Positions 11,188 through 17,041 of a stretch of 23,255 nucleotides of DNA are shown piece after piece. Source of the stretch: a virus; IMG/VR virus record IMGVR_UViG_3300012001_000271, positions 1 through 23,255 of that record. One strand, 5' to 3'. A program made the position numbers and the translations under genes. Under the pieces are notes generated by a model. It was given only the letters and a program-made list of their open reading frames with translations. It was not told where the DNA came from and did no database searches. How positions within the stretch are numbered: position 1 is the stretch's first letter; each line of letters opens with the position of its first letter.

Positions 11188-11691
11188 CTAGCTGTCAATG
11201 AACGCGATCATCTGCTGGACATGCTTCGAGGTCAGCCCGTGATTCCTGTCGGGGTTGATTGCCAGCAGCCGGTCGCCCTGTTCCTTGACAAAGCCCTTAC
11301 CGCCGATGTCGTGTTTGATGTCGTCGTCCAGCCAGATAGCTTTTTCTGGTGTAGTATCTTCAATGTCCTTGCGAATCTCGCGGAGCTTCCACCACTTGGT
11401 GAGATCGTCCTGATCACCGTAGGACGCCAGAAAGGGCCAGTGTGTCCCGATGCCGACGACAGGGGCGAAGGACTCCACAGCCATCCCCTCCCATGACGTG
11501 AGCCACTTGAAGGCAACATCCTCGCGACTATCAAGGGCGTTGAGAGCATCGATGAGCTCCACGGACCAGAGCATCGAAAAGCCTGCTATGCGTTCCGTCC
11601 TCCACTCCCCTTTCCAGAGGGTGTGGTTTCTGGGCGCTCCTTTGGAGAAGGGGCTAAGTACACCGTCGATGTCCTGATAGATGTTGATCAT
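11188..11691 (-). CDS. HAD-like phosphatase (HAD domain of RNA-repair type)
   Basis: A 167-residue protein starting MINIYQDIDGVLSPF, with the HAD nucleophile pair D7 and D9. It continues through FKWLTSWEG (motif II-like Thr/Ser) and KAIWLDDDIKHD (acidic motif IV) to AINPDRNHGLT. This order fits the small HAD proteins annotated as HAD domains of Swiss-army-knife RNA repair proteins, which are common in actinophages. It probably removes phosphate from nucleic acid ends or small molecules. The start at 11691 is chosen over the longer frame because AAAGGA lies 6 nt before it and the longer frame would enter the upstream terminator. Confidence 0.78.
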   Translation of the reverse strand: MINIYQDIDGVLSPFSKGAPRNHTLWKGEWRTERIAGFSMLWSVELIDALNALDSREDVAFKWLTSWEGMAVESFAPVVGIGTHWPFLASYGDQDDLTKWWKLREIRKDIEDTTPEKAIWLDDDIKHDIGGKGFVKEQGDRLLAINPDRNHGLTSKHVQQMIAFIDS

Positions 11692-11710
11692 GTGATTCCT
11701 TTGTTGGTAT

Positions 11711-11750
11711 ATCAAAATGAAGGCACCGCCCATCGGGACGGTGCCTTCAT
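11711..11750 (-). terminator. Terminator after rIIB
   Basis: Perfect 12-bp stem (11717-11728 with 11739-11750, GAAGGCACCG core), then TTTTGAT on the minus strand. It lies 10 nt past the rIIB stop. Confidence 0.8.
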
Positions 11751-16064: not shown

Positions 16065-16067
16065 TCG

Positions 16068-16154
16068 TGACGGCAGAGGGAATCGAACCCCCGGGGGACA
16101 TTACATCGCCAGATTTACAGTCTGGTGCCACCAACCAACAGTAGCCCTACCGCC
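16068..16154 (-). tRNA. tRNA-Tyr (anticodon GTA), long variable arm
   Basis: 87 nt. Acceptor GGCGGTA/TGCCGTC with wobble pairs, anticodon stem CCAGA/TCTGG with loop CTGTAAA, long variable arm, T arm GGGGG-TTCGATT-CCCTC, discriminator A. Confidence 0.92.
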
Positions 16155-16242
16155 TTGGTATGGGCACCTTGCGGCGGCTAATCCCATCTTGAGTGGAGAG
16201 CTCCCTCTACCCTTAGCTGGGTCGCAGAGTGGGTTCCACTTG
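16155..16242 (-). other. tRNA spacer, 88 nt, no clear gene
   Basis: It contains a D-arm-like AGCT...AGCT fold and a loop CTCAAGA, but no T arm or acceptor stem. I cannot support a tRNA. Confidence 0.3.
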
Positions 16243-16325
16243 GGTGATTGACGGGACTTGAACCCGCATGTCCTTGGACACTAGGACCACAACCTAGCGC
16301 GGCTACCAATTTCGCCACAACCACC
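16243..16325 (-). tRNA. tRNA with His anticodon (GTG) on a class II Leu-type body
   Basis: 83 nt including an encoded G-1. Acceptor GTGGTTG/CAATCAC, with G-1 facing C73, the bacterial tRNA-His identity pair. Anticodon stem CTAGG/CCTAG with loop TTGTGGT. The core TGGCGAAATTGGTAG, the 12-13 nt variable arm (TGTCCAAGGACAT) and TGCGGG-TTCAAGT-CCCG are typical of tRNA-Leu, not of tRNA-His. Confidence 0.85.
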
Positions 16326-16329
16326 ATGA

Positions 16330-16420
16330 GGTGTAGAGTCCGGTCTGCTGTAACGAACCGGCGACCGATTCGCCAACTTCGGAAGGGCTACAGCCTGCCG
16401 AGAAGGTAACGATCTACACC
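16330..16420 (-). ncRNA. 91-nt folded element of tRNA size, identity unknown
   Basis: Outer 8-bp stem GGTGTAGA/TCTACACC, an inner GGCGA-ATCGG-TCGCC hairpin, a GGC-TGTA-GCC hairpin, and a GCCGG-TTCG start of a T-arm-like part that is not closed by a normal 7-nt loop. It lies between tRNA-Asp and the His/Leu tRNA. It may be a degenerate or interrupted tRNA, or a different structured RNA. Confidence 0.35.
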
Positions 16421-16423
16421 ACG

Positions 16424-16498
16424 CGCCTACGAAGGGATTTGAACCCTCGACCTCATCCGTGACAGGGATGCGAACACTCCAGACTGTTCTACGTAAGC
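16424..16498 (-). tRNA. tRNA-Asp (anticodon GTC)
   Basis: 75 nt. Acceptor GCTTACG/CGTAGGC, D arm GAAC/GTTC, anticodon stem CATCC/GGATG with loop CTGTCAC, T arm GAGGG-TTCAAAT-CCCTT, discriminator G as expected for Asp. Confidence 0.92.
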
Positions 16499-16579
16499 AA
16501 GTGCCGGTCCTAGCGGCTGTGCGAATTGGGTCCGCCACTCCTGTTGGGATGATTAACGTCGTCGCCGAGTTATATTGCG
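16499..16579 (-). other. tRNA spacer, 81 nt, nothing assigned
   Basis: GC-rich, with short inverted repeats (GCCG/CGGC), but no cloverleaf or ORF that I can support. Confidence 0.3.
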
Positions 16580-16652
16580 TGGAGCCTGTGGGTTACGATC
16601 CCACTGCCTCCTGCTTGCAAAGCAGGCGCTCTTCCGATTGAGCTAAGGCCCC
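16580..16652 (-). tRNA. tRNA-Ala (anticodon TGC) with unusual T loop
   Basis: 73 nt. Acceptor GGGGCCT/AGGCTCC (one G-U), D arm GCTC/GAGC, anticodon stem CCTGC/GCAGG with loop TTTGCAA, T stem GTGGG/CCCAC. The T loop is ATCGTAA, not TTCGANN. Confidence 0.92.
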
Positions 16653-16822
16653 AGTTGCTCTCTTGTCAGAGAGCCGGGTTCACGGTTCTTTCCCGTGTGT
16701 CATTCCATATTACATTGGACATGCTGTCAGTTGTGAACTCTGACACTTTTGATTCAATACATTGATGATTGGGTCATCAGCCTGTTGTGCATGATTGACA
16801 TAGGATGCCTCCCTGTGAATCG
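16653..16822 (-). other. Largest tRNA spacer, 170 nt, with processing-type hairpins
   Basis: Hairpins GCTCTCT-tgtc-AGAGAGC (16657-16674) and CACGG-7 nt-CCGTG (about 16681-16697). A 15-codon ORF starting near 16803 (MSIMHNRLMTQSSMY) has a good GGGAGG site before it, but nothing else supports it. Confidence 0.35.
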
Positions 16823-16906
16823 CTCTCACGGTAGGAATCGAACCTACGGTGTCTTTCGAAACAGATTAACAGTCTGTCGCACCCAGCCAACAGGTGCCCC
16901 GTGAGA
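16823..16906 (-). tRNA. tRNA-Asn (anticodon GTT) with long variable arm
   Basis: 84 nt. Acceptor TCTCACG/CGTGAGA (T1-A72), D stem GCAC/GTGC, anticodon stem ACAGA/TCTGT with loop CTGTTAA, 13-nt variable region TTCGAAAGACACC, T arm GTAGG-TTCGATT-CCTAC, discriminator G. The D loop and anticodon arm resemble the tRNA-Tyr at 16068. Confidence 0.88.
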
Positions 16907-16967
16907 ATATGAATTTTCGCCCTACAGGCAGGTACCGACCCTCTCGGGTATCCAACGGCAACTTTCG
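16907..16967 (-). other. tRNA spacer, 61 nt
   Basis: A small ACCC-GAGA-GGGT hairpin is the only structure seen. Confidence 0.3.
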
Positions 16968-17041
16968 TTACGGAGATCGGATTTGAACCGATGATCTTCG
17001 GGTTATGAGCCCAACGGGATACCGAACTTCCCCACTCCGTG
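16968..17041 (-). tRNA. Initiator tRNA-fMet (anticodon CAT)
   Basis: 74 nt. The first acceptor pair is a C1-A72 mismatch (CACGGAG/CTCCGTA), and the anticodon stem ends in three G-C pairs around loop CTCATAA (TTGGG/CCCGA). Both are hallmarks of the bacterial initiator tRNA. T arm ATCGG-TTCAAAT-CCGAT, discriminator A. Confidence 0.93.

Follow-up and report, generated by a model that had tools for sequence, protein, structure and literature searches.

A phage tRNA-His with a leucine-type class II body and its probable origin by alloacceptor remolding

Introduction

A long variable arm is the textbook trait of class II tRNAs, which in bacteria are limited to those for Leu, Ser, Tyr and Sec. The locus described here raises the question of whether a His tRNA can also carry such an arm and how it might have acquired it. 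We analyzed a 23,255-nt stretch of viral DNA (record IMGVR_UViG_3300012001_000271; hereafter, the window) with an 83-nt tRNA gene on the minus strand at 16243-16325 that combines the anticodon GUG, an encoded G-1 and C73 with a 13-nt variable arm and a tRNA-Leu core. The initial annotation interpreted the gene as a tRNA-Leu remade to be charged with His.

Structure of the tRNA-His gene

ARAGORN called a tRNA-His(gtg) on the minus strand (16242-16324) and the Rfam model RF00005 matched positions 16243-16324 with 47.9 bits (cut-off 29), placing a 10-nt insertion in the variable region. These results and a position parse confirmed the class II arm, GUG anticodon and G-1:C73 pair described in the initial annotation, and its coordinates were right. 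The gene and its parts are:

16243..16325, minus strand: class II tRNA-His(GUG) with a Leu-type core and G-1 facing C73 (ARAGORN, Rfam, position parse)
16325..16325, minus strand: encoded G-1, facing C73 (sequence)
16318..16324, minus strand: 5' strand of the acceptor stem, GUGGUUG, pairing with 16250-16244 (position parse)
16298..16317, minus strand: positions 8-26 and D arm, TGGCGAAATTGGTAGCCGCG, of tRNA-Leu type (core comparison)
16281..16297, minus strand: anticodon arm CTAGG-TTGTGGT-CCTAG, with the anticodon GUG at 16288-16290
16268..16280, minus strand: long variable arm TGTCCAAGGACAT, 13 nt (Rfam, position parse)
16251..16267, minus strand: T arm GCGGG-TTCAAGT-CCCGT with a five-pair stem (position parse)
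16243..16250, minus strand: 3' strand of the acceptor stem, CAAUCAC, and discriminator C73 at 16243 (position parse)

The acceptor stem (16324-16318 with 16250-16244) has seven pairs, one of them G.U, and the D stem of the class II tRNA-His has three. The gene carries the GUG anticodon and G-1:C73 pair of a tRNA-His on a body other than the class I type (variable loop of ~5 nt), its 13-nt variable region being within the range of class II tRNAs (>=10 nt). The variable arm is 15 nt, with a longer stem, in the homologues of the cultured phages Talia1610 and Racecar. Because the sequence after C73 reads C-A-A, the full CCA is not encoded in the window; it is encoded in the Talia1610 homologue. 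The predicted RNA fold was unusually stable (z = -3.7; 0/200 shuffles as stable), its minimum-energy form differing from the cloverleaf. A class I fold, which the initial annotation had named as the outcome that would count against it, was ruled out by the Rfam match, since RF00005 accommodates the gene only with the insertion in the variable region. The division of the acceptor and T stems into 7 and 5 pairs, plus the -1:73 pair, similarly ruled out an allo-tRNA.

Class I and class II genes at a shared locus

The relatives of the window are Arthrobacter globiformis phages of ~194 kb (Talia1610, Mimi, Racecar and Atuin) and two contigs, G001 (37.6 kb) and G002 (153 kb), whose proteins are 92 and 37% identical in amino acids, respectively, to the 723-aa HATPase-domain protein of the window. 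All of them share with the window the tRNA gene order Met-Asn-Ala-Asp-His, which in the window includes the following syntenic neighbours of the tRNA-His:

16424..16498, minus strand: tRNA-Asp(GUC) (ARAGORN, Rfam)
16580..16652, minus strand: tRNA-Ala(UGC) (ARAGORN, Rfam)
16968..17041, minus strand: tRNA-Met(CAU) (ARAGORN, Rfam)

The His gene at this syntenic position belongs to class II in the window, G001, Talia1610 and Racecar, whereas Mimi, Atuin and G002 carry a class I gene with 5-6 nt in the variable loop. In Talia1610 and Mimi, the tRNA-His genes are 56% identical between flanks that match at 92.3% over 1 kb on one side and 98.3% over 0.9 kb on the other, and the neighbouring tRNA-Asn and tRNA-Asp are identical. 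The dissimilar stretch is the tRNA alone, bounded by common ends (GGTGG and CACC(C)); the GGUGG...CACC ends of the window tRNA are also found in the class I tRNA-His of the relatives. The class I and class II genes are, therefore, alleles of one locus in two lineages, and this provides the strongest indirect support for the class II gene doing the job of a His tRNA.

Conservation pointed in the same direction. The tRNA-His of the window and G001 had 0/83 changes, against 38/594 (6.4%) in the intergenic DNA between tRNAs, and compensating stem changes keep the fold in the Talia1610 and Racecar homologues. The absence of changes relative to G001 and the intact stems ruled out a pseudogene. A sequencing error, which the initial annotation had allowed for if close relatives carried a Leu anticodon, was ruled out by the identical gene in the independent contig G001 and by the homologues in cultured Talia1610 and Racecar; the close class II homologues all keep GUG. 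G001 encodes 28 tRNAs for all 20 amino acids, with this class II gene as its only tRNA-His, and the four Arthrobacter phages encode 30-32 tRNAs for 20 amino acids, each with exactly one tRNA-His. Hence, the original tRNA appears to have been replaced, as expected of remolding: there is a single His tRNA per phage, and it is class II where relatives have class I.

Potential RNA repair functions are encoded as well. An RNA ligase gene directly adjoins the tRNA-His in Talia1610 (L015 6109-7077), Mimi (L016 3716-4690) and Racecar (L017 2623-3591), which suggests repair of cut tRNAs. In the window, a protein encoded on the minus strand (11188-11733) matched the HAD_SAK_2 domain of Swiss Army Knife RNA repair proteins with 28.7 bits (cut-off 27.5).

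Identity elements of the acceptor end

The determinants of His identity in bacteria are G-1, C73 and the anticodon, whereas Leu needs A73 and Ser G73 (PMC9976931). Consistent with this, the His synthetase (HisRS) charges minihelices carrying G-1:C73 and contacts mostly the -1 region and the anticodon (PMC9976931). In our parse of phage tRNAs, C73 was present in all His tRNAs and A73 in 38/38 tRNA-Leu, while a G at -1 was found in only 6/348 non-His tRNAs. Both G-1 and C73 were present in 9/9 class II His tRNAs, and G-1 in 12 of the 13 His tRNAs with a Leu body or class II arm.

How these counts can be read depends on how the genes were retrieved. Our first pattern scan demanded a CACC 3' end, so that in its six viral contigs only G-1, and not C73, is independent of the search. 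A second scan that used the D arm and anticodon only and left the acceptor end unconstrained repairs this bias in part; it recovered C73 in every callable match and G-1 in all but one. L029, L034, L110, L111, L112 and L114 had G-1 and C73 (L112 is the G001 contig, cut at its end, and its C73 was taken from the separate G001 parse), L109 had U-1 and C73, and L113 was broken. Among the 13 class II or Leu-body His tRNAs, all but a small minority of stem positions held standard pairs, and most stem positions occurred as two to five different pair types; in this count, the variable and T arms of the L110 row were shifted by one base. Pairs were counted by position because the MAFFT alignment misplaces the acceptor in several rows. 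Across phage tRNAs, the anticodon covaries with the acceptor end.

Leucine origin of the tRNA body

We scored the kinship of the tRNA body on the core, with the acceptor, anticodon and variable arm excluded. The window core scored 40.4 of 51 against Leu(GAG) and 40.0 against Leu(UAG), compared to <=33.8 for any other amino acid and 27.4-33.8 for the class I tRNA-His of the relatives; its nearest cores were the Leu(GAG) of actinobacteria, Atuin and G002. Aligned to the actinobacterial Leu(GAG) (TGGCGGAATTGGTAGACGCG-CTAGG-TTGAGGG-CCTAG), the window sequence (TGGCGAAATTGGTAGCCGCG-CTAGG-TTGTGGT-CCTAG) had four differences in 37 across positions 8-43 and, apart from the anticodon change A35U, 33/36 positions matched. 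The core is thus of the Leu type, yet the discriminator is C73 instead of the A73 of a tRNA-Leu isoacceptor. We also built the tree of tRNA cores proposed in the initial annotation, using 78 phage and actinobacterial sequences and 51 columns. All of the class II His tRNAs fell inside class II Leu (support 97/80, 99/87 and 96/84), although an AU test on these few columns did not reject a single clade of all His tRNAs (p = 0.31). A near-identical donor tRNA-Leu was sought in the phage and none was found; the donor could have been a tRNA-Leu of the host or of a phage.

Recurrence in other phages and search of bacteria

Class II tRNA-His genes were also found in the viral contigs G003, G004, G005, G006, G008 and L114, with a further candidate (L033/G007), and in the cultured Brevibacillus phage Jenst, whose annotated tRNA-His is 91 nt long. 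The variable arm in these other class II His tRNAs is 13-19 nt. The class II tRNA-His therefore recurs in unrelated phages. In G003 and G004 the bodies are class II but not clearly of the Leu type. Three more genes (L109, L110 and L111) combine D and anticodon arms of the Leu type with a 5-6-nt variable loop; the arm may have been shortened at a later stage. BLAST searches against cultured phages returned no match for the G008 and G003 versions and tRNA-Leu only for the L114 version. As a side observation, several tRNAs of the Streptomyces phage Sham (L087 2001-2075) are labelled by reading the anticodon as a codon; its "tRNA-Val(gtg)" is a tRNA-His by ARAGORN and lacks G-1.

The same searches in bacteria gave a different picture. 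Across 84,980 species genomes, the first pattern matched 51 stretches, none of which was a class II tRNA-His (50 overlapped no tRNA call and the remaining one overlapped an adjacent tRNA-Leu). The pattern of a Leu body with GUG was absent (0/398 genomes each) from two phyla sampled around Bacillota and alphaproteobacterial genomes and present in 1/396 genomes sampled around an actinobacterial genome, or 1 of about 1,190 overall; a control Leu(GAG) pattern matched 79/100 genomes in the actinobacterial sample. The single match, in an Actinomycetota genome (L122 1454-1538, minus strand), has GUG on a tRNA-Leu body with a Leu acceptor and A73, lacks G-1 and pairs poorly in the anticodon stem; gene decay or misassembly is the probable explanation. 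A bacterial origin of the remolded form was, accordingly, not found in the pattern scans of species genomes and phylum samples.

Other tRNAs that cross the class boundary

The window contains a second tRNA with a class II body and a class I identity, next to a conventional tRNA-Tyr:

16823..16906, minus strand: class II tRNA-Asn(GUU) with a Tyr-like core and G73 (ARAGORN, parse, core score)
16068..16154, minus strand: tRNA-Tyr(GUA), normal class II (ARAGORN, core score)

The core of the tRNA-Asn is nearest to that of the tRNA-Tyr of the same phage (41.0 of 53; next best, 33.4), and their anticodon loops (CTGTTAA and CTGTAAA, respectively) are one base apart. From these similarities, the donor of the tRNA-Asn body was likely related to this tRNA-Tyr. 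The discriminator is, however, the G73 of Asn, whereas Tyr has A73. At the corresponding position, the tRNA-Asn of Talia1610, Mimi, Racecar, Atuin and G002 is class I, and the tRNA-Asn of the Streptomyces phage Wofford has the same acceptor stem (TCTCACG) with a short loop. The four GUN-anticodon tRNAs (Tyr, His, Asp and Asn) are all present in the window array (16067-17041, minus strand), and two of them have been rebuilt on foreign bodies. In bacteria, GUN-anticodon tRNAs carry queuosine, and they are cut by colicin E5.

Other huge phages encode class II candidates for Trp, Asn, Lys, Met, Asp, Val, Thr, Pro and Arg, each with the discriminator normal for its anticodon; most of them are calls by ARAGORN and the position parser (loci L101 in G003, L102-L103 in G004 and L106-L107 in G007). 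Crossings in the reverse direction were observed in several phages as tRNA-Leu genes with a 5-6-nt class I variable loop yet A73:

L101 177788-178470 (record coordinates), L104, L086 and G001 10752: short-loop tRNA-Leu

Long tRNA-Asn genes were noted as well in two cultured phages, the T4-like Erwinia phage Vettismorki (L118 578-658; ~80 nt, class II in ARAGORN, with the same BLAST match in Serratia phages) and the T5-like Salmonella phage GEC_vB_N3 (L121 379-458; ~80 nt).

A remolding model and its alternatives

The sequence and fold of the gene, its conservation, the kinship of its core, the covariation of anticodon and acceptor end and the alternation of class I and class II genes at one locus are the observations that any explanation must accommodate. 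The alloacceptor switch proposed in the initial annotation is the reading they support best, as the core is nearest to Leu(GAG), the tree places it inside class II Leu, and G-1 and C73 are His determinants. We consider it highly probable, judging from these comparisons, that a tRNA-Leu was remolded to a functional His acceptor that replaced the class I gene in the phage array. The tRNA-Leu, most like Leu(GAG), would have acquired the A35U change (GAG to GUG) and also G-1 and C73, the acceptor end of a His tRNA, which may have come from the resident tRNA-His by recombination. The remolded tRNA would then have displaced the class I tRNA-His at its array position with the long variable arm retained, if the direction of the exchange is as we propose. 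RNase P is known to leave G-1 on the eight-pair acceptor helix of tRNA-His, and it would presumably do so here. The host would add CCA, and its HisRS would charge the tRNA via G-1:C73 and the GUG anticodon, while C73 would take it out of the reach of the Leu synthetase (LeuRS). The charged tRNA may then read CAC and CAU codons alongside the other members of a nearly complete phage tRNA set, which could aid translation when host tRNAs are scarce.

The alternatives differ in which part of this history they dispute. It is very improbable that the tRNA is instead charged with Leu, or with Ser via the long arm, and thereby mistranslates His codons in infected cells. The gene has retained a Leu core and a long variable arm, and the listed determinants for bacterial LeuRS and SerRS include no anticodon base. 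But Leu needs A73 and Ser G73, and the presence of C73 in all class II His tRNAs makes mischarging with Leu unlikely, as G-1 is also found in 12 of the 13 class II or Leu-body His tRNAs; further, each phage has one His tRNA, and mistranslation at every phage His codon is hard to square with its conservation. We assign a similarly slim chance to the convergent gain of a long arm by a class I tRNA-His that does not descend from Leu. The AU test is compatible with this history and so are the acceptor ends, which resemble those of the class I tRNA-His of the relatives; however, the D and anticodon arms of the window, Talia1610 and Racecar genes are of the Leu type, the tree places these genes inside Leu, and Leu-type D arms with a His anticodon recur in other phages. 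Least credible is the reading of the gene as a tRNA-Leu that has decayed or lost its function and whose anticodon mutated by chance. The actinobacterial gene in L122 shows that such cases occur (1/396 genomes), with its Leu acceptor, A73, missing G-1 and poor anticodon stem. The phage gene has, by contrast, a His acceptor end, intact stems, compensating changes, no substitution relative to G001 and syntenic conservation, so that this reading is in effect already refuted.

A separate matter, which would add to the remolding model rather than replace it, is why the long arm persists. We lean clearly towards the arm being tolerated rather than selected, because the contacts of HisRS are concentrated on the -1 region and the anticodon (PMC9976931). 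It is nonetheless conceivable, if doubtful, that His (and Asn) tRNAs on other bodies resist host anti-phage tRNA nucleases and that the arm was selected for this reason. The tRNA-Tyr of phage T5 resists retron-Eco7 via its distinctive variable loop, and Septu cleaves the variable loop of tRNA-Tyr (PMC13096335); phage tRNAs have also been proposed to dodge tRNA-cleaving defences by anticodon-loop changes (PMC10264068). The rebuilding of two of the four GUN-anticodon tRNAs in the window, its RNA-repair-type HAD domain and the RNA ligase beside the tRNA-His in relatives are in line with such a pressure. Against it, the anticodon loop of the class II tRNA-His has a normal sequence, the arm is only 5-6 nt in L109, L110 and L111 and is therefore not always retained, and sister phages manage with a class I tRNA-His. 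More speculative still is the generalization that crossing the class I/II boundary is a routine way of rebuilding tRNAs in large tRNA-rich phages, the acceptor determinants switching with the anticodon, because the altered bodies or arms escape host tRNA-cleaving defences. The amino acids involved would be His, Asn and Trp and perhaps Lys, Asp, Val, Thr, Pro and Arg.

Comparison with known systems

These findings suggest that, by all indirect evidence, a long variable arm does not prevent a His tRNA from working and that viruses, in re-assigning tRNAs, can cross a structural boundary apparently kept in bacteria. The genes can also be arranged as a natural series that starts from Leu, continues with a Leu body of His identity that has the long arm and ends with one in which the arm is short, and the close cultured phages Talia1610 (class II) and Mimi (class I) represent a natural swap of alleles. 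Together, the series and swap make testable the tolerance of HisRS, elongation factor Tu and the ribosome for the arm and the change of tRNA body as a means of nuclease escape.

GenBank labels the Talia1610, Racecar and Jenst genes as tRNA-His with no comment on class, and our search of open-access papers returned no account of class II tRNA-His or class-crossing remolding in phages. Among the better known tRNAs, the gene resembles the class I tRNA-His of Mimi, Atuin and G002 in its GUG anticodon, G-1:C73 pair, locus and acceptor ends and differs from it in lacking the short loop and non-Leu core. Conversely, it has the core, anticodon-stem type and long arm of tRNA-Leu(GAG) but not its GAG, its A73 or its lack of G-1. 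Allo-tRNAs likewise have a long arm and unexpected anticodons and were found by sequence mining, yet they split the acceptor and T stems 8/4 or 9/3 (PMC7609411), compared to 7/5 plus the -1:73 pair here. The yeast mitochondrial tRNA-Thr(UAG), as cited in PMC7609411, is also a working tRNA of alloacceptor origin, but the change ran in the opposite direction (from tRNA-His) and, as far as that citation goes, the codon was reassigned, whereas the phage code is presumably unchanged. The closest parallels are the alloacceptor remolding of metazoan mitochondria (PMC4783518) and the anticodon shifts of eukaryotes (PMC3923123), in which a donor tRNA gene whose anticodon was a single substitution away likewise took over the identity of another amino acid's tRNA and replaced it. 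Mitochondrial tRNA identity depends mainly on the anticodon (PMC4783518). The remolding we propose here differs in that it took place in a phage, carried a class II body to a class I identity and switched the acceptor determinants (G-1 and C73) together with the anticodon.
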